A stretch of DNA of 44,040 bases, from the NCBI GenBank assembly GCA_013002205.1, contig JABDKN010000199.1, forward strand, positions 1 through 44,040, written 5' to 3'. Below the pieces are notes generated by a model. The model had not been told where the DNA came from and did no database searches. It saw only the letters and a list, made by a program, of their open reading frames with translations. The number at the start of each line of letters is the position of its first letter. The stretch's first letter is position 1. The DNA is from Granulosicoccus sp. GTDB taxonomy: Bacteria; Pseudomonadota; Gammaproteobacteria; Granulosicoccales; Granulosicoccaceae. Positions 21,654 through 33,051 of the stretch are shown in pieces. The translations under genes and the position numbers were made by a program.

Positions 21654-21732
21654 CCAGACATCATGTAGTGACCTGCCCATCTCAAGAACGTGGATTATCA
21701 GTGAGATGGGCTGGTCACTACATGATGTCTGG
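21654..21732. repeat. Long inverted repeat (31-bp arms, one mismatch) overlapping the atpG 3' end
   Basis: The left arm is 21654-21684 and the right arm 21702-21732. They are reverse complements at 30 of 31 positions (the mismatch is near the middle) around a 17-base loop. The right arm encodes the last ten codons of atpG and its stop falls in the loop. A stem of this length far exceeds a normal terminator and has no T-tract. It could act as a strong RNA hairpin between the convergent permease gene and atp operon, or be the scar of an inverted duplication. Confidence 0.85.
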
Positions 21733-22618
21733 CTTTACGCCTGGGCTGGCGTTTTAATGCTTCGAATCCGATGATCACGTCAAGCAGTTCCGTGGTGATC
21801 TCGCTCTGGCGTACGGTTCGCGTTTCGCTGGACAATTCTTCCAGTCGCTCATCCACAGAATGTTCTGCCTGCTGCATACGTTCCAGGCGCGCTGAATTCT
21901 CTGTGACCAGTGCTTCAGCAGCCGCGCAATATAGATCGGCAAACAGCAGGTTCCTGATCAATGCCGCCAACAGCTCTTCGGCTGGCGGATTGAACTGCGG
22001 TAAGCTGTTCGATATCCACGGCGCGTCAGCCAGCCTGTCCAGCAGGCTCTGGTCGACGGGCAGCAGGCACTGACTGACTGGAAATTGTTGTCCTTGCTCT
22101 GCACGTCTGGTGTAGACCAGTGTCGCATCGATCGTATCGACTCCGGGGCTCTGGTCTATATTGTCCAGATTAGCGACCAATTCGCTGGCCAGACGACCCA
22201 GACCCTCGGCCGTTGCAGGTGGCAGTAACGCAGGTTCGGGTGACAATCCCAGGCCTTTCAAGGCATCTTCCATCTGGGCGCCTACGCAGATGATACGGTT
22301 CGAGACATGAGTGGCAGTCTGCGCGGCTACCTCAGCGGCGATGATCTCGTTGTAGTTTCCACATAAACCATGATCCGAGCCCAGGGCGACGATCACCGGA
22401 GTGCTCGTCAGATTTTTTTCATGAGGCAGAGGCCCATGCTTGTGCATGAAAGCCTGCAAGGCGGTTAGGACGATGTCGCGGTAGGTGGTAATGCTGTTGG
22501 CAGCCTGCTCATAGGGCTGGGTATTGATCGCGGACATCGTCTTCATCGTGCGCACGATGCCGCGAATACTGCGCAGGGTATCGGTGCGGTGGGTCAGCGA
22601 TTCAAGCGACTGGGGCAT
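21698..22618 (-). CDS. atpG: N-ATPase gamma subunit (central stalk)
   Basis: A 306-residue gamma-like subunit, last gene of the operon; it overlaps the end of atpA by 17 bp. The first part, [25 protein letters not shown], is the N-terminal coiled-coil helix of the rotor shaft. [12 protein letters not shown] is the conserved 'sD-GLcG-yN' segment. The C-terminal helix [20 protein letters not shown] completes the shaft. After the usual end a further [18 protein letters not shown] tail follows, whose codons form one arm of the inverted repeat at 21654-21732; the tail may be a recent addition. Confidence 0.92.
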
Positions 22619-24134
22619 GGATCTGTCCTCCCTCCACCAGCGCCTTGCGGCTCGCCTGTACGATGCGCCCGGTAACCTCCGTGCTCACTGTCGAACCTGC
22701 AGCGATGATCGGAGCCACCCATGGCATCGCAGTTTTCACTGCGGCCCGGATCAGTTTCATGGCTTCATCGCAGGTGGTTTCATCCATTCCGTCGAGTAAA
22801 CCCTGCATGGCGCACACCAGTACGACCAATTGCTGATCCGCAGGCAGCGGCTCACGCTCCGGCTGCCTGAGTGCCGCGCGAACGGCAGCACCACGTGCCA
22901 GTCGTGTGCGGGTCACGGTATCCAGCCGTGTTCCAAAACGGGCAAATTCCTCCAGTTCCTCGAATTGCGAGAGTGTCACGCGCAGATTACCGGCAATGTC
23001 TCTCAAGCTTCGACTTTGGGCCTTGCCGCCAACACGTGACACGGAAACACCCAGATCTATTGCTGGAAACTGGTTTTTCTGTACAAGTCGAGGCGACAGT
23101 GCAATCTGCCCGTCAGTGATGGAAATGAGATTGGTCGGTATATAGGCGGACAGGTTGCCGGCCTGAGTTTCCACCACGGGAAGGGCGGTGATGGAACCGC
23201 CGCCCACGGCCGGAGAAAACTGACCGGCGCGCTCCAGAAGTCGTGCATGCACATAGAAAATATCACCAGGGAAGGCCTCACGACCAGGTGGTCGTCGTAA
23301 CAGCAATGACAATTCCCGGTAAGCGTGAGCATGACGCGTGAGGTCATCGAAAACTACCACCACGTCGTCACCGTCATCGGCAAAGGACTCAGCGATTGAC
23401 ATGGCGGCGTAGGGAGCAATATAGGCAAGTCCGGGTGCCTCTTCGTCTCCGGCTATCATGACCAGGGTGTTCTGCTGCATGCCGCCATCCCTGATAGCCC
23501 CGATGACCTTGGCCACCGCATCTCCCCGCTGACCAATCGCACAATATATGCATCGCACCCCCGAGTCTTTTTGATTCAGAATGGTATCGATGGCTATAGA
23601 TGTCTTGCCGGTCTGTCTGTCACCGATGATCAGTTCACGCTGACCCAGGCCGATGGGAACGGCTGCATCAACTGCCTTTAGTCCGGTAGCCAGCGGCCGT
23701 GAGACGGCGCTGCGTTGCAGAATCGGGCGAGCATCGGCCTCTACCGGTCGTCGAGTCGTCGAGTCAATGGGGCTGCCCGCATCACGCACCCGCCCCAGCG
23801 AATCGATGACGCGACCCAGCAATGCACGGCCAACCGGAACGCTGACCACTGAGTGACTGCGCCGAACATCCTCGCCGAGAGACACCTGGGCCGATGGCCC
23901 AAGTAGCACGACACCCAGGCGACCTGGCTCCAGATCGAAGACGATTCCCCGTACACCGGACGTAAAAACCAGGAGCTCGTCAGCCAGTGCACGGGCCAGT
24001 CCTGTCACTACGGCAATGCCATCACCCACTTCGGTCACTCTGCCGATTTCGTTGAGTCGAGGACGAGGCGACGGTGCCTGTAAAAGTGCATCTATTCTCT
24101 CCCGAGTCGTCCACACCGACACATCAGACGACAT
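22602..24134 (-). CDS. atpA: N-ATPase alpha subunit
   Basis: A 510-residue alpha subunit. The ATG at 24134 overlaps the end of atpF by 11 bp; a longer frame from 24191 runs inside atpF and is rejected. The Walker A loop is GDRQTGKTS, and the alpha-type nucleotide region includes [46 protein letters not shown] and [46 protein letters not shown]. It forms the non-catalytic site-bearing part of the F1 hexamer. N-type alpha subunits have the GR-x-E/V-type N-terminal beta barrel seen here ([20 protein letters not shown]). Confidence 0.94.
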
Positions 24135-24888
24135 CCGATGCTCCGCGATTCCTGACAGCCATACCCTCGCGCAGCAATTCGTCCAGTCCATCCAGATAGC
24201 TATCCACTGTCCAGCTCAACTGCACGCCGCCGAGTCTTAGCGTGAGGCCAGGCGAATGTTCCGGTTCGGAGACGAAAGCCAGTTCGGTGTCTGGCAGGGC
24301 ACGTCCGAATTCCTCACGTAGCTGCTCTTGCATGTCGTCGGGCAGCGCCTGCTGTGTCGTGATGGTGGCATGGTCGTGCGTGGCGGCCGCCTGGCGAAAC
24401 TGTTCGCCCATGCCGCTGGACCTGGCCACCGCGTGTGCCACGATTCGTTGCTCCAGTGTCTCGTCTGACAGGTCGCTCACAACCTTGCGGGTCAACTTCA
24501 GCAGGGCCTTGGCCCCAATCATATGCAACTCCGTCATGTAGCGCGACATCTCTTCCGCCCGTTGTTTTTCACTCTCCTGAATTTCGCGCACTATCATTGC
24601 GTGGGTGTCGGCAAGCATGCCGTCGCGTTCAGCTTCCGCTGCACGCCGTGTCTCTGCCAGAATACCCTCGCGATCCTGTTTCAATGATGCAATCTTTGCC
24701 TCGAAACCGGCCTTCGTCTCGTGAGCGGTTTCGCGAATCGCTTGTGCTTCTGACATACGATCCGCTATTTCGCGTTCTCTTGCATCGATTCCATCGAGTA
24801 TCGGTCGGTAGAGGAAGCGTTTCAGCAGCCATACCAGAACCAGGAAATTGACAATCTGGGCGGCAACGGTAAACCAGTCGATGGACAC
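24124..24888 (-). CDS. atpF: N-ATPase b subunit with extended, delta-like C-terminus
   Basis: A 254-residue protein from a GTG at 24888, three bases after atpE. One N-terminal membrane helix ([21 protein letters not shown]) is followed by a long charged coiled coil (to about residue 140) and then a further 110 residues ([27 protein letters not shown] ... [40 protein letters not shown]). An ordinary b subunit is about 160 residues. N-ATPase operons lack atpH, and the extended C-terminus resembles a delta subunit (KVVS-L, G--l--g----D-S----L), so b and delta functions appear fused, as described for this ATPase type. Confidence 0.9.
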
Positions 24889-24891
24889 GGC

Positions 24892-25191
24892 TCAACCACC
24901 AGCAGCCATTGCCGCAGTGCTGGCAGCCTCCAGTGCGGTATTCCAGAATGGATTCGCGAACAGCAGTATCATGGCAACCACAAAGCAGTAGATCGCAGTC
25001 GATTCGATCATTGCAAGACTGACGAACAAGGTGCGCGACAGCGTCGCCGCTGCGTCGGGTTGCTGGGCAATGGCGTTGAGTGCCGTCGAGGCCGCTCTGC
25101 CTTCACCCAGTGCTGGTCCCAGGGCACCGAATGAGACTGTCAGGCCGGCAGTGAATATGGATATCGACGCAATGATGGCAAGATCTGTCAT
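24892..25191 (-). CDS. atpE: N-ATPase c subunit (rotor ring)
   Basis: A 99-residue hairpin of two membrane helices; its ATG overlaps the stop of atpB (ATGA). The helices are joined by the polar loop NAIAQQPDAA. The carboxylate of the ion site is Glu63 in MIESTAIYCF. Ser64, Thr65 and Tyr68 stand where Na+-binding rings have Ser, Thr and Tyr. In helix 1, Glu30 (GPALGEG) replaces the Gln of the Na+-type site, giving two carboxylates per hairpin. Sequence alone does not decide between H+ and Na+. Confidence 0.93.
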   Translation of the reverse strand: MTDLAIIASISIFTAGLTVSFGALGPALGEGRAASTALNAIAQQPDAAATLSRTLFVSLAMIESTAIYCFVVAMILLFANPFWNTALEAASTAAMAAGG

Positions 25192-25892
25192 GAGTGTCCT
25201 ACTGGTTTCAGGTGTTGGTCAGAGTCTGACGGCGTCGCTGTTGCTGACGATATGTAGACGGTGGCAAGGATGGCAAAGATGTACGCCTGGATCACACCGG
25301 TGAGCAGACCGAGCATGTCCATGACGACCGGAAAAAAGAACGGGGCGACACCAAGCAGAATCGCAGCGATCACTGCACCGCTCATGATATTGCCGTACAG
25401 TCGAATCGCCAGCGAAATACCGCGAGAAAACTCGCCGATGATATTGAACGGCAGCATGATCGGTGAGGGTTGAATGAAGGTGCGCAGATAGCCGCCGATA
25501 CCGCGACTGTCTATACCAAACGCTGGTACCGCGATAAGCACCGACAGAGCCAGGGCTGTCGTCGTGGACAACGATGCTGTCGGTGGCGTGAATCCAGGTA
25601 CGACCATCAGGATGTTGGAGACGAGTATGAACAGAAACAGCGTGCCCGTGAAATAGAGGAGTCGATGGTCAGGCCGACGGGTGATTTCCTCGATCTGCGA
25701 TTCGATACCCAGTACGATGACCTCAAGGGTCGTGCGCCAGCGATCAGGCGCGACATCGGCCCGCAGGTTACGAGTGATAAGCACAGAGATGCCGGTAATC
25801 AGGCCCATGACTACCCAGGTGTATACGATGGTGTCATTGATTGCCCAGGCGCCAATGGAAAAGGCAATGCTGCTATCCGGTGTCAATTCCAT
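25188..25892 (-). CDS. atpB: N-ATPase a subunit (ion channel stator)
   Basis: A 234-residue membrane protein. Typical a-subunit segments are RLLYFTGTLFLFILVSNILMVVPGFTPPTASLSTTTALAL and IGEFSRGISLAIRLYGNIMSGAVI, in which the second Arg (SLAIRLYGN) is the essential channel arginine opposite the c-ring carboxylates. The last helices read LLTGVIQAYIFAILATVYISSA. It overlaps atpR (TGATG) upstream and atpE (ATGA) downstream, so the three are translationally coupled. Confidence 0.93.
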   Translation of the reverse strand: MELTPDSSIAFSIGAWAINDTIVYTWVVMGLITGISVLITRNLRADVAPDRWRTTLEVIVLGIESQIEEITRRPDHRLLYFTGTLFLFILVSNILMVVPGFTPPTASLSTTTALALSVLIAVPAFGIDSRGIGGYLRTFIQPSPIMLPFNIIGEFSRGISLAIRLYGNIMSGAVIAAILLGVAPFFFPVVMDMLGLLTGVIQAYIFAILATVYISSATATPSDSDQHLKPVGHS

Positions 25893-26188
25893 CAGCCTGG
25901 TCCCCGACTCGTGCCCGGTCGAACCACCGCCATGATGATGTAGCGCGTAAGAAGAAATGCCACGGCGAAGCCGATGGTGGCAGCTGGACCGAGTGTGGCC
26001 ACGCTTGACCCTGCGCCCAGCAGCAACAGGATCCGAATCAGTGCACTGAGAACCAGAATGGTTGTGGTGCTGGTGCTGTTCAAGGCAATCTTCATCCCCG
26101 CTGCCAGACCGGCAAAGAACAATGTGCTGGCAACGGCTCCTGCCAGTAGTCCGAACCCGACCATCGTCCAGTCAACTGCGGTAATCAT
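25892..26188 (-). CDS. atpR: N-ATPase accessory membrane subunit AtpR
   Basis: A 98-residue protein with three hydrophobic segments. The ATG at 26188 has AGGGAG at eight bases and overlaps the atpQ stop; a frame from 26218 has no better start. atpR is found only in N-type ATPase operons, between atpQ and atpB. The sequence includes NSTSTTTILVLSALIRILLLLGAGS; a conserved Arg in a membrane helix (SALIRILLL) is thought in this family to face the c ring and aid assembly. Confidence 0.88.
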   Translation of the reverse strand: MITAVDWTMVGFGLLAGAVASTLFFAGLAAGMKIALNSTSTTTILVLSALIRILLLLGAGSSVATLGPAATIGFAVAFLLTRYIIMAVVRPGTSRGPG

Positions 26189-26471
26189 CGTCTGTTCTCC
26201 CTGTCTACCCACGACCATGCGAGCAAGGCACCGGCGACGACACCTCCCAGAATCAGTGCGATAGTCCAGGAGAAATCCCTGGGTGCCACGCGATCAAGCC
26301 ACAGGCCCAGAAACGCCCCGCCGACGGTTGGTACCACGATCGACCAGCCAATCATGCCGAACGTGCCAAATCCTCGCAAAGGGCTGGGTGCAGGTTGATC
26401 GCGCTGCGCCCGTTTGCGCGATACCTGGCTGGCAATGTCGTGCAGTGATGGATCCTTGTTTGGCCTGTCAC

Positions 26472-26475
<4 letters not shown>
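26185..26475 (-). CDS. atpQ: N-ATPase accessory membrane subunit AtpQ (AtpI-like)
   Basis: A 96-residue protein. A charged N-terminal stretch (NKDPSLHDIASQVSRKRAQRD) precedes two membrane helices (FGMIGWSIVVPTVGGAFLGLWLDR and WTIALILGGVVAGALLAWSWV). The GWSIVVPTVGGAFLGLWLDR segment matches the AtpI/AtpQ form, whose conventional relatives help assemble the c ring. It overlaps atpC at its start (ATGA) and atpR at its end. Confidence 0.88.
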
Positions 26476-28345
<1,870 letters not shown>

Positions 28346-28430: not shown

Positions 28431-29585
28431 TCATTTGCCGAACAGCAGGGTACGCGGGTAGTCCGTGAGATACTCGATGCCCGTGTCAGTGACCACTACC
28501 GAGTCGCCGATTCGACCGGCTGTCACACCATCCACCGATATGCCTCCGTCGACTGCAAACGTCATCCCCTTTCGCAGAATCGTCCTGTCGCCTTCCTTGA
28601 GTTCAGGGGCTTCCAGATAGGCAACACCAATGGAGCGACCAGTACGATAACCGGGTGCGTAACCTCTCTGGCGGTAAACCTCATTGGCCGCCATGGCGAC
28701 CTCTTCGGCATGCACGCCGGGACGTATGGATTCGATGGCTGCCTGTTGGGCCTCGATGGCAACCAGTTGCACATCGCGATCGACGTCCCTCACATCTCCG
28801 ATATAGAACATGCGGTCGAATCCCAGTTTGTATTGTTTGAACTGGACCATGTTGCAGAAGCAGAAGTAGACCGGATCAAACTGGCGATAGGCCTTGACGC
28901 TGGCGCGACGATGCACCATGGAGGTATCAGTACCACTTTGGAGAATCTGTAAATTATGCAGCAGCGGTGATACGAACCGATCCCAACCTCGTTCTGTCAG
29001 AAAACTGGCTGCCTTGCGTGATCCAGCATCTATGACAGCCAGGGCGGACTCATACTCGCGCGCGCCTGCGTGCAGGCTGTCATGTGCTGCGGCCATCATG
29101 ACGCCGGCGATCTCGCCTGCCTTTTTCATGATCTCTATTTCGAAGGGCGATTTGACTGTACGCATCGGGCCCAGGATGCAGGCGATGTCCTGCAAAGTTA
29201 TATCCCTGTATGTTTCGTCGAGAAAGTTGCGAACGATGGCCGGTATGCTGTTGCTCTCCACCCAGATATCCGCAGGTTTGCTGCCCAGTGCGTCAGAGAG
29301 CACCACAGCCCAGGAGCGGTTACCGGAGTCCTCCCAGAGGCGGATGTCCTCAACCCAGGTCATGGCCTCCACCATCTCTGCTTCCATCAACGGAGTGATC
29401 ACGATCGGCGGTTCTTCAGCGTCGATGACGAGCAGGCTGGGACGACCGAATTCGATGCCCAGATATCCCCAGAAACCGGCGAGGTAGGCGATGGACGCTT
29501 CATCACTAATCAACGCCTTGTGAATTCCCAGCTCCTGCATGCGGGATTGCAAATTCAATGTGCGTAACCTGGCTTCCGCTAGCAT
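28431..29585 (-). CDS. M24-fold (creatinase/aminopeptidase P-like) protein with replaced metal ligands
   Basis: A 384-residue protein with the creatinase N-terminal domain (RLRTLNLQSRMQELGIHKALISDEASIAYLAGFWG) and the pita-bread C-terminal domain. The usual metal positions look changed: Gly255 in YKLGFDRMF where the family has Asp, Arg317 in RTGRSIG where the family has GHG, Asp346 in FAVDGG for Glu, and Gly360 in GRIGDSVVV for Glu. It is therefore unlikely to be a standard metallopeptidase and may act like metal-free creatinase or be non-catalytic. It begins 19 bp after maiA and is probably the last gene of the homogentisate operon. Confidence 0.82.
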   Translation of the reverse strand: MLAEARLRTLNLQSRMQELGIHKALISDEASIAYLAGFWGYLGIEFGRPSLLVIDAEEPPIVITPLMEAEMVEAMTWVEDIRLWEDSGNRSWAVVLSDALGSKPADIWVESNSIPAIVRNFLDETYRDITLQDIACILGPMRTVKSPFEIEIMKKAGEIAGVMMAAAHDSLHAGAREYESALAVIDAGSRKAASFLTERGWDRFVSPLLHNLQILQSGTDTSMVHRRASVKAYRQFDPVYFCFCNMVQFKQYKLGFDRMFYIGDVRDVDRDVQLVAIEAQQAAIESIRPGVHAEEVAMAANEVYRQRGYAPGYRTGRSIGVAYLEAPELKEGDRTILRKGMTFAVDGGISVDGVTAGRIGDSVVVTDTGIEYLTDYPRTLLFGK

Positions 29586-29604
29586 GAGAATCTCCTGGTC
29601 CGGG

Positions 29605-30234
29605 CTAGAGTGCCTTCACGGCGTCAGGATGCGCAGCTATGAAAGCCGGATGGTCGCAGCAGGCTTCGGCCACGCAGCGGATTCTACGGCACTGTGAATA
29701 GTCTGCTCCCCAGCGATCGGCATTATACAGCTGCGGTACCAGACACAGGTCTGCCAGTGATGGACGATCGCCGGTGCAGAAGGGAGATTGTTCAAATTCC
29801 GCCAGTCGTGACTCGAAGGTTCTCAGGCCGGGTGTGATGAAGTGTCGCATCCACTGTGTTCTGGCAGGCTCCTCGCCATTCGTTGCATACTCCACCACTG
29901 ACAGATTACACACAGGGTGCAGGTCTATTGCCAGCGAATAGGCCAGTGCCTGCACCTGGGTACGAAGTACCGGCTCAACCGGCAGCAGTTGCAGGTTTCT
30001 GGTTGAATCCAGATAGTCGATGATTGCCAGCGATTGTGTGAATCTGTGTCCATCGATATCCAGAACCGGAACCAGACCCTGTGGGTGACGTGCCAGGTGA
30101 TCTGCCTGTTTGTGCTCGCCTGCCACGAGATTCACGGGTATGGATTGCCAGTCGATACCTGCCAGATTCAGCGCAATGCGTACGCGATAGCTTGCGGATG
30201 AGCGCCAGTAATCGTAAAGCCTTACCGTGTTCAT
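29605..30234 (-). CDS. maiA: Maleylacetoacetate isomerase (zeta-class glutathione transferase)
   Basis: A 209-residue cytoplasmic enzyme that isomerises maleylacetoacetate to fumarylacetoacetate using glutathione. The zeta-class active-site motif is YWRSSASYRVRIAL, followed by the cis-proline PQGLVPVLDIDG and QSLAIIDYLD (glutathione-binding Ser). The all-helical domain includes TPGLRTFESRLAEF and DRPSLADLCLVPQLYNA. The ATG at 30234 was chosen from the family start; the frame is open further upstream but would run into fahA. It lies 34 bp after fahA. Confidence 0.93.
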   Translation of the reverse strand: MNTVRLYDYWRSSASYRVRIALNLAGIDWQSIPVNLVAGEHKQADHLARHPQGLVPVLDIDGHRFTQSLAIIDYLDSTRNLQLLPVEPVLRTQVQALAYSLAIDLHPVCNLSVVEYATNGEEPARTQWMRHFITPGLRTFESRLAEFEQSPFCTGDRPSLADLCLVPQLYNADRWGADYSQCRRIRCVAEACCDHPAFIAAHPDAVKAL

Positions 30235-30268
30235 GATGGGTAGCTTGCTGCAGCCTGTGCCTCCACGA

Positions 30269-31525
30269 TCACCGCATGAACGGATTGGCAAGCGCCGGTA
30301 CGACGGTGCCGCTGCATTCGCCAAAGCCGATTCTGTATCCCGGACCTTGAGCGTAGCCGTGCAACGTCAAAGTATCCCCATCTTCAAGGAAGCTGCGGGT
30401 TTCGCCACTATCGAGTGTCAGGGGTTCCTTGCCGCCCCAGCTTAGTTCCAGTAGCGATCCGCGGGAGTGTTTGTCAGCACCGGATATGGTACCCGAACCG
30501 AGAAGGTCGCCAGTGCGCATCGGACAACCGGAGCTGCTGTGGTGTGCCAGTTGCTGGGCGGCTGAGTAGTACATCTCACGGTAGTTCGTTGCGGTGATTG
30601 TCGTCGCTGCCTTGCCACTGGGAGCCAGTGTGACGCTCAGGTTCAGGTCGTAGAGCATGGGTCCTGTGTCTGCCAGGTACGGCAGTAGCGGTACCTGGCG
30701 TTCAGGCGTGTGTACGCGAAATTCCTCCAGCGCTGCGGCCGTGACGATCCAGGGACTGATGGTGGTGGCTGTCGCTTTGGCCTGGAACGGGCCAAGAGGC
30801 TGGTATTCCCAGGCCTGGATGTCCCTGGCTGACCAGTCGTTGAGTAGTACATACCCGAAAATCATCGCGTCCGCCTCATCGACGCTTACCGGACCCTGAG
30901 AAGGCGTACCCACGATGGCACCCAATTCCAGCTCCAGATCGAAGCGCCGCGACGGCATGAAGGCGGGTTGCGGTTGGTCTGCGCCTTTCACTTGTCCCCA
31001 GGGCCGACGTATAGGTGTGCCTGAAACCACGACTGAGGACGCACGGCCATTGTAGCCTATGGGCATGTGCAACCAGTTGGGTGGCAGCGCATTCTCGGCT
31101 CCGCGAAACATGGTGCCGACATTGGTGGCATGGTGACGACCGGCATAGAAGTCAGTGTATTCACTGACTGTGAACGGCAGTTGCAGCAAGACCGAGGACA
31201 GTGGATAGAGGTGCGCTTCGACATCGCTGCGTGCAGCGGCGCCCTCGGACATCAGTGTCGTCAATTGATCACGAAATCGCAACCAGGTCACTGGCCCGCG
31301 ATTCATCAGCGTGTTCCAGGATGGTCGCCGGCAGATCGGTGTGTCACCGGTCACCAGGATTCCCTGCTCCTCCAATGTTGCAACATCCAATACCTGGTCG
31401 CCGATAGCCACTCCACAACGGGGTGCTTTGCCCGGTGGTGAGAACACGCCATAGGGCAGGTTATTCAGGGGGAAATCCGTCCCGTCTACATTGGCACTGG
31501 ACAGCCAGCTTTTACGTAAGGTCAT
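30269..31525 (-). CDS. fahA: Fumarylacetoacetase
   Basis: A 418-residue hydrolase for the last step of tyrosine/homogentisate breakdown, giving fumarate and acetoacetate. The N-terminal SH3-like part (FPLNNLPYGVFS) is followed by the FAH fold with YTDFYAGRHHATNVGTMFRG (catalytic His and metal Asp), RRFDLELELGAIVG (two metal Glu) and LLNDWSARDIQAWEYQPLGPFQAK (metal Asp). Normal length. It follows hmgA by 42 bp, forming the operon hmgA-fahA-maiA. Confidence 0.95.
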   Translation of the reverse strand: MTLRKSWLSSANVDGTDFPLNNLPYGVFSPPGKAPRCGVAIGDQVLDVATLEEQGILVTGDTPICRRPSWNTLMNRGPVTWLRFRDQLTTLMSEGAAARSDVEAHLYPLSSVLLQLPFTVSEYTDFYAGRHHATNVGTMFRGAENALPPNWLHMPIGYNGRASSVVVSGTPIRRPWGQVKGADQPQPAFMPSRRFDLELELGAIVGTPSQGPVSVDEADAMIFGYVLLNDWSARDIQAWEYQPLGPFQAKATATTISPWIVTAAALEEFRVHTPERQVPLLPYLADTGPMLYDLNLSVTLAPSGKAATTITATNYREMYYSAAQQLAHHSSSGCPMRTGDLLGSGTISGADKHSRGSLLELSWGGKEPLTLDSGETRSFLEDGDTLTLHGYAQGPGYRIGFGECSGTVVPALANPFMR

Positions 31526-31567: not shown

Positions 31568-32929
31568 TCATTTGACACCCGGGGTGCCATCGAATTTCTT
31601 CTCGATACTGTTCCAGCAGTCTATGTAGTCATCCTGAAGTGGTGCCTCTCTGGCGGCGAATGGTGTCAAGTGTTGTGGAAATCGGGTTTCGAACATGAAT
31701 GACATGGTGCTTTCCAGTTTCTCCGGTTTGAGTTCGGCGTTGGATGCCCGCTCGAAGGCCTGTTGATCCGGACCGTGCGGTAGCATCATGTTGTGCAGAC
31801 TCAATCCTCCGGGTACGAAACCTTTGGGCTTGGCATCGTATGCGCCGTAGATGTTGCCCATCAGTTCAGACATGAGGTTCTTGTGATACCACGGTGGACG
31901 GAAGGTGTTCTCCATGGTCAACCAGCGCTCACGAAACAGTACGAAATCGATATTGGCAGTGCCTGGTACACCTGAGGGTGCGCTCAGCACGGTAAAGATG
32001 GAGGGGTCGGGGTGATCGAACAGGATTGAACCGATTGGACAGTAGGTCCCCAGATCGTACATTACCGGTGCGTAGTTGCCGTGCCAGGCCACGACATCCA
32101 GAGGACTGTGTCCTATCTGCGTACGGTGAAACTGGCCGCACCATTTGACGGTGACACTCGAGGCAGTTTCGCAATCCTCGAACGCCGCCACTGGTGTCTT
32201 GAAGTCGCGGCGGTTGGCCATGCAATTGGCACCAATGGGTCCACGTCCCGGCAGTTCGAATTTCTGGCCATAGTTTTCGCAGACGAATCCTCGGGCGGGC
32301 CCCTTCAGCAACTCGACCCGGTAGACCAGGCCACGGGGTATGATGGCGATATGACGGGGCGCCAGTTCCATTATGCCCAGTTCAGTGCACACTCGCAATT
32401 CGCCTTCCTGCGGCACTATCAGCAATTCACTGTCGGCCGAGTAAAAGTAGTGGTCTACCATGGAGTCCGTCACCAGGTAGACATGGCTGGCCATGCCCAC
32501 CTGCGTATTGACATCTCCAGCCGTGGTCATGGTGCGCATACCAGTCAGCCATGTCAGCTTTTCGCTGGTATGCGGGATGGGGTCCCAGCGATACTGTCCC
32601 AGACTCACTATGTCCGTATCGCTCGCCGGTGCCGTACGCCAGTATGGAACGTCTATTTTCTCGTAACGGGCCGAATGTTTGACTGATGGGCGGATTCGGT
32701 AGCACCAGGTCCGTTCGTTCTGATGTCCTGGTGCGGTGAATGCAGTACCACTGAGTTGTTCACCGTATAATCCATAGTTGCATTTCTGCGGACTGTTCAT
32801 GCCCTGTGGCAGAGCACCGGGCAGTGCTTCAGTCTGGAAGTCATTGCCGAAACCGGACAGGTATTGCAATGGTTTGTCAGAGGCGTGAACAGCCTCGTGT
32901 GCTTCCACGGATTCAGTTGACTTGGTCAT
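31568..32929 (-). CDS. hmgA: Homogentisate 1,2-dioxygenase
   Basis: A 453-residue cupin-fold, Fe(II)-dependent ring-cleaving enzyme that turns homogentisate into maleylacetoacetate. The start ATG at 32929 has GGAG at six bases; an upstream frame to 33004 is ignored. Family marks are [19 protein letters not shown] near the start, and the iron-site segments [19 protein letters not shown] (His, Glu) and [11 protein letters not shown] (His). It is the first gene of the homogentisate operon. No local regulator gene of the HmgR type is in the window. Confidence 0.96.
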
Positions 32930-33051
32930 GCGAGACTCCCTGCGGCAGAATTCCATGGATACAGTGCAGACGCGTGGTGTAGACGCTAACGATTGCACTC
33001 GCAACTGTCAATCTGTTGCAAATGCAATTATATGAATGGTCACCCGGATTG

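Follow-up and report, generated by a model that had tools for sequence, protein, structure and literature searches.

The gene described here lies in the window, the whole 44,040-bp stretch of Granulosicoccus sp. DNA (contig JABDKN010000199.1) that we analyzed. It encodes a protein of the M24 (pita-bread) family that has lost all of the family's metal ligands, and we propose with moderate confidence that it is a metal-independent C-N hydrolase of the creatinase/ectoine-hydrolase kind that shares a pathway with an amide hydrolase in many of its relatives. The 384-codon ORF begins with ATG and runs on the minus strand between the positions given by the first-pass annotation. Pfam finds in its product both PF00557 Peptidase_M24 (85.2 bits) and PF01321 Creatinase_N (44.5 bits), and this domain pair and structure comparison agree on the pita-bread fold. 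Its GC content of 0.56 is ordinary for the window (0.557), and a promoter/terminator scan gave sites no more numerous than in shuffled sequences. The features discussed below are collected in Table 1.

Table 1. Positions in the window of the M24 gene, its diagnostic residues and its upstream neighbors
Feature	Position	Strand	Basis
M24 gene, metal-ligand-free M24 (pita-bread) protein, 384 aa	28431..29585	-	ORF listing, Pfam, homologs
AGGAGA, likely ribosome-binding site, 5 bases before the M24 ATG	29591..29596	-	sequence reading
FGR motif F46-G47-R48, same register as FGR of creatinase (Phe62/Arg64)	29442..29450	-	alignments
H225, conserved M24 His, candidate general base, likely equivalent to creatinase His232	28911..28913	-	alignments
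C242, replaces ligand Asp1 (CFCN motif)	28860..28862	-	alignments
G255, replaces ligand Asp2 (KLGFDR motif)	28821..28823	-	alignments
R317, replaces ligand His (TGRSIG motif)	28635..28637	-	alignments
D346, replaces ligand Glu1 (AVDGG motif)	28548..28550	-	alignments
G360, replaces ligand Glu2 (RIGDS motif)	28506..28508	-	alignments
maiA (maleylacetoacetate isomerase), upstream neighbor, no conserved partner	29605..30324	-	first-pass annotation and sequence recognition
fahA, neighbor only	30269..31525	-	named by sequence recognition
hmgA, neighbor only	31568..33004	-	named by sequence recognition

In alignments to Pyrococcus prolidase (1pv9) and to ectoine hydrolase (6twk), C242, G255, R317, D346, and G360 stand where the ligands D, D, H, E, and E would be, and 0/5 of the residues that mark an M24 metallopeptidase (prolidase, aminopeptidase P, MetAP) are present. 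The Gly, Arg, Asp, and Gly previously noted at four of these positions are all correct, and the first ligand Asp proves to be replaced as well. The five replacement residues are invariant in 80/80 aligned sequences (the window protein and 79 homologs of 64-76% identity drawn from the best 80 of 209 matches), as are H225, C244, N245, Y252, K253, D257, R258, and D361 in the same set. Together with H225 they are also identical throughout three subfamilies: 83/83 sequences of subfamily A, 4/4 of B (the branch at about 50% identity), and 13/13 of C (about 38%). Six motif strings looked for in another 24 C loci were each present in 22 or 23 of them, the misses being an AVDG variant (L225), a split copy (L241), and a copy with stops (L242). 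The last two (in G440 and G670) look decayed, the one being split and the other having two in-frame stops. C242, C244, D346, and D361 are invariant across A, B, and C, and H210 is invariant in A and C and is Tyr in 4/4 B sequences. An invariant replacement set implies that the former metal site has been rebuilt and is strongly constrained; judged by residue conservation, the substitutions are a rebuilt site and not decay. This branch of the family is probably metal-free. This invariance, together with the gene's ordinary composition, rules out a pseudogene or drift.

An AlphaFold2 monomer model (52 sequences, pLDDT 84.2, pTM 0.84) is closest in structure to creatinase 1chm (Z 39.4; 370 residues at 2.2 A), with DoeA (36.4) and then prolidases (35.2) next by Z; Foldseek orders them differently, with two prolidase mutants on top and creatinase third. 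Plain sequence searches find prolidases as the best matches, the full-length protein matches 1chm at 5e-14, and its identity to creatinases in structural alignments is 21-24%. Creatinase works without metal, and the ligand-free pita-bread enzymes creatinase and DoeA/EutD are both hydrolases acting on a C-N bond, their substrates being amidino or cyclic amidine compounds. Creatine is bound in creatinase by Phe62 and Arg64 of the adjacent subunit, His232 is the proton shuttle, and Glu262, Arg335, and Glu358 are the remaining active-site residues.

The N-terminal domain of the window protein carries F46-G47-R48-P49. FGR is found in 80/80 sequences of the first alignment, and FGRP is present in 83/83 A, 4/4 B, and 12/13 C rows, the exception (T2_L130) being a truncated row of 319 aa. 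Neither the single DoeA sequence compared nor the two of M24b (a second M24 protein, see below) contain FGRP, and FGR is missing from the ectoine hydrolase and prolidase sequences used for comparison. The N-terminal domain of a C-subfamily member aligns its FGRP to that of creatinase (chain index 61-64), and the register for the window protein, which has the motif in the same columns, is taken from that member; creatinase is absent from the matches up to E 5 when the window N-terminal domain alone is the query. H225 stands in the conserved M24 His column (PHLTW in DoeA, PHG in prolidase). In the alignment of the C-subfamily member with 1chm (query 17 to chain 224) this column falls on what is presumably His232, a numbering taken from the aligned range, if the first eight columns are ungapped. 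H225 is thus likely the His232 equivalent on this alignment, and the active His that the first-pass annotation had called not obvious has a good candidate. The low-confidence blocks of the model (41-50, 201-230, and 311-330) cover the active-site loops and the FGR and His regions; because those two regions lie there, a pocket shared across a dimer is something that we infer.

The gene neighborhoods of relatives point to a recurrent partner. Neighboring genes were placed in single-linkage groups at 30% identity, within which paralogs are possible, and the subfamily A loci are the best 80 of 209 matches, a sample biased toward close relatives, of which 79 were scored. A nitrilase-superfamily CN hydrolase lies directly downstream on the same strand in 65/79 of the scored loci among these best 80 of 209 (66/80 when L099, counted by hand, is added), with a gap of 0-4 bp in 50/65. 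Its E44, K113, and C146 (L069 numbering), which we take to be the nitrilase catalytic triad, are conserved in 97% or more of the 65 sequences; against NCBIfam the enzyme stays below every cut-off, the best match being "nitrilase" with 104 of 500 bits. Ten other A loci encode an AtzE-like amidase (355.7 of 461 bits) within one to three ORFs past the M24 gene, in four of them behind an ORF of 80-130 aa (that of L041 has no Pfam match) and in six behind a second, DoeA_2-like M24 gene; L059, L071, L114, and L116 have neither partner. Many A loci are a bare two-gene pair amid unrelated genes. We found no description of the pair with the CN hydrolase in the titles and abstract beginnings of the papers that our literature searches listed.

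Other genes recur less regularly in the A loci. Among the best 80 of 209 matches, a GntR-family gene is present in 49/80, a EutA-like gene (TIGR02990, 207.2 of 318 bits) anywhere in the locus in 23/80, a DctM-family gene in 22/80 (as direct upstream neighbor in 14/79), and sarcosine oxidase beta genes nearby in 5/80, three of them Stappiaceae; an M20 gene 5-30 bp upstream occurs in 0/80. The sarcosine oxidase genes are in line downstream in L060, L062, L063, and L085 and on the opposite strand in L088. Roseibium sp. MMSF_3544 (L085:913-5987) has an apparent full eutABCDE set, as we name these genes from sequence recognition, just upstream of its cluster of our M24 gene, M24b, amidase, and sox genes. 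On plasmid pSC52_1 (L131:4243-9964), genes for kynureninase, an aminotransferase, and an acyl-CoA dehydrogenase precede the M24 gene and its CN hydrolase.

Subfamily B is found on plasmids of rhizobia and Paraburkholderia. In two of its loci (L133 and L135) the M24 gene is followed by a short ORF and then by an amidase gene and an ABC importer, and ahead of it, on the opposite strand, lie a GntR gene and one of arylmalonate-decarboxylase/racemase type. L134 has the amidase in fragments, and for L136 none is listed, the plasmid gene tables being incomplete. The 37 subfamily C loci comprise 24 of the 27 places from one search, 11 from another, and two plasmids, L243 being B-like. An M20 amidohydrolase gene lies 5-30 bp upstream (measured between match ends) in 11/37, and within 7.2 kb on the opposite strand in three more. 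For this M20, NCBIfam gives DoeB2 (N-acetyl-diaminobutanoate deacetylase; 318.5 bits, cut-off 550) as the best match; the one cut-off that it clears is that of TIGR01891, a broad amidohydrolase model, and among PDB chains it is nearest to a plant IAA-amino acid hydrolase homolog. A EutA-like/AMDase gene is directly downstream in 8/37 C loci, and soxB lies within 0.84 kb in 6/37; in Roseovarius pelagicus and Aminobacter, ehu importer genes, the M24 gene, AMDase, and sox genes follow one another. None of the 37 has both M20 and EutA-like genes adjacent, and 17/37 have no M20, AMDase, or sox gene as direct neighbor.

No amide hydrolase gene adjoins the window M24 gene, and the closest relatives of the partners in its genome (CN hydrolase 38%, amidase 36%, and M20 43% identity) are all on other contigs. 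The family occurs in 8/397 sampled genomes of the phylum at E <= 1e-50, the window's included, and in many named Rhodobacterales. Relatives are annotated "Xaa-Pro peptidase family protein" or "aminopeptidase P," which the metal-site residues do not support; seen instead as creatinase- or ectoine-hydrolase-like proteins that recurrently have a partner, the family has a substrate that can be tested for with two genes. Many Ti and related plasmids of Agrobacterium and Rhizobium (e.g., H16-H50) carry an M24 relative of 29-30% identity to the window protein, also annotated Xaa-Pro peptidase. Elsewhere in the window genome (G000:C27:2805-4670), a EutA-like gene (28%) lies beside another M24 paralog, a candidate ectoine-type pair. 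On the downstream side of the M24 gene, an F-type ATPase operon (21698-28339, minus strand) begins 91 bp past the stop codon, with beta and epsilon first and alpha and gamma last, presumably the layout of Na+-type N-ATPases; L081 also has an atpA, at 68% identity, about 5.6 kb from its own copy of the M24 gene.

On its upstream side the gene does follow maiA, as previously noted, with a gap of 19 bp from the maiA stop. That spacing on the same strand, with no terminator-like site found between the two genes on that strand, and the plasmid homolog that follows kynureninase, aminotransferase, and acyl-CoA dehydrogenase genes would suit an enzyme of the homogentisate/tyrosine pathway. We nevertheless regard such a role, which the first-pass annotation had drawn from the operon position, as highly improbable. 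In tblastn searches with the window HmgA, FahA, and MaiA, none of the three was found in 99 homolog loci, and in 25 further loci hmgA and fahA were likewise absent and MaiA gave a single partial match of 75 aa; this 0/124 for hmgA and fahA covers near linkage, the loci being 3.3 to 21 kb long with 10/124 under 10 kb. The same search recovers fahA and maiA, and hmgA at least in part, in 6/6 congener stretches, and surveying these six congeners with homogentisate genes placed the M24 gene after maiA in 0/6. Four other copies in the genus (L069, L075, L082, and L095; 69-73% identity, 4/26 congeners) have the CN hydrolase downstream instead. On these tests of near linkage we reject a homogentisate link, the claim from operon position falls, and the hmgA neighborhood is unsuitable for annotating the gene, which apparently came to lie beside the tyrosine-breakdown genes only through a local rearrangement in the window genome. 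A quick tree with weak support nests the window copy within subfamily A, which is rich in Rhodobacterales, and separates it from the four genus copies, a placement that would fit a separate horizontal acquisition. Four congeners (L169-L172) have two extra genes between fahA and maiA, presumably MBL-like and flavin monooxygenase-like by sequence recognition, which the window does not have.

Three further explanations were weighed. A true creatinase-type amidinohydrolase, converting creatine or a close analog to sarcosine (or another N-substituted amino acid) and urea, would account for the best fold match, the FGRP motif common to both, the probable fit of His225 to His232, and the soxB that follows in 6/37 C loci and in line in four A loci. 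The identity to creatinases is only 21-24%, and the amide hydrolases and EutA-like racemase found as partners would be superfluous for creatine, so we think this unlikely. Somewhat less likely still is that the protein has no catalytic activity and serves as a scaffold or regulatory subunit, perhaps for the amide hydrolase encoded next to it. The loss of all metal ligands would agree with such a pseudoenzyme and the tight spacing to the CN hydrolase gene is compatible with a complex, but C242, R317, D346, and H225 are fixed in 100/100 aligned sequences, and the occupation of the amide-hydrolase place by unrelated families suggests that what is shared is a metabolite and not a protein contact. 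Moreover, creatinase and DoeA are active enzymes on the same pita-bread fold, DoeA also without the ligands (its pathway is cited below). Finally, C242, C244, D346, and D361, invariant in A, B, and C, and H210, invariant in A and C, could in principle form another metal site. We consider this improbable, since H210 is Tyr in all four B sequences and the groups of creatinase and DoeA come out by Z as its nearest structural neighbors, and we know of no M24 metal site built from residues of this type.

The metal-independent C-N hydrolase that we prefer would act most likely on a cyclic amidine/amide or an amidino compound with a carboxylate. The amide or N-containing substrate suggested in the first-pass annotation is thus plausible, with creatinase the nearest fold and amide hydrolases common neighbors of the relatives. 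His225 would be the general base, and the pocket would be the former metal site, now C242/G255/R317/D346/G360. The FGR arm suggests a substrate carboxylate, which it would hold from the neighboring subunit. In many relatives the adjacent amide hydrolase, whether nitrilase-type, AtzE-type amidase, or DoeB2-like M20 deacylase, would handle the acylated half, in modules where a GntR regulator, an importer of the TRAP or ABC type, and a EutA-like racemase are often also encoded. Where sarcosine oxidase genes come next they suggest an N-methyl amino acid downstream, a plausible product. The window gene is a copy lodged behind maiA with no adjacent partner. As a more tentative extension, the family may be a third metal-free pita-bread enzyme class next to creatinase and ectoine hydrolase, with His225, Cys242, Arg317, Asp346, and a cross-subunit Arg48 as its catalytic set. 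It would open an unrecognized N-metabolite, an osmolyte resembling creatine or ectoine, in bacteria of the sea and the rhizosphere, and three unrelated amide hydrolases would have been recruited for the second step.

Comparison with the known pita-bread proteins places the window protein as follows. Prolidase/Xaa-Pro peptidase (PDB 1pv9, 5cde, and 4zng) has the same fold, gives the best plain sequence matches, and supplies the usual database name, but has the five metal ligands that are all missing here. The DMSP lyase DddP was rejected as an identity (NF043017, 20.6 of 600 bits; metal ligands absent). The M24b of the Stappiaceae clusters (DoeA_2-like; L063 and others) directly adjoins our M24 gene in six loci and likewise has the M24 fold without ligands, but is closer to DoeA_2 (186.6 bits of 575) and has neither the residue signature of our family nor FGRP. 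DoeA/EutD (PDB 6twk and 6yo9; TIGR02993 and NF038259) has the same fold and, in 6twk, has also lost all five ligands, with E, P, Y, M, and T where our protein has C, G, R, D, and G; unlike our protein, the DoeA sequence compared does not have FGRP. The window protein scores far below the curated DoeA cut-offs (TIGR02993, 84.2 of 613 bits; NF038259, 100.8 of 575 bits), and is thus neither a metallopeptidase by the ligand test nor a DoeA by these cut-offs. In the ectoine pathway, as described in PMC5924519 and PMC13188858, ring opening by EutD/DoeA yields an N-acetyl compound that EutE/DoeB then deacetylates, and EutA is proposed to invert 5-hydroxyectoine. DoeA/EutD works with a deacylase and EutA according to these papers, and relatives of our protein adjoin a DoeB2-like M20 or a EutA-like gene. 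Creatinase (PDB 1chm, 1kp0, and 7yto) resembles our protein most closely in its two-domain pita-bread fold, in the FGR placed in register through the C-subfamily member, and in the His232 that His225 probably matches, and differs from it by the low identity of the two sequences and by our family's neighboring amide hydrolases and EutA-like racemase.
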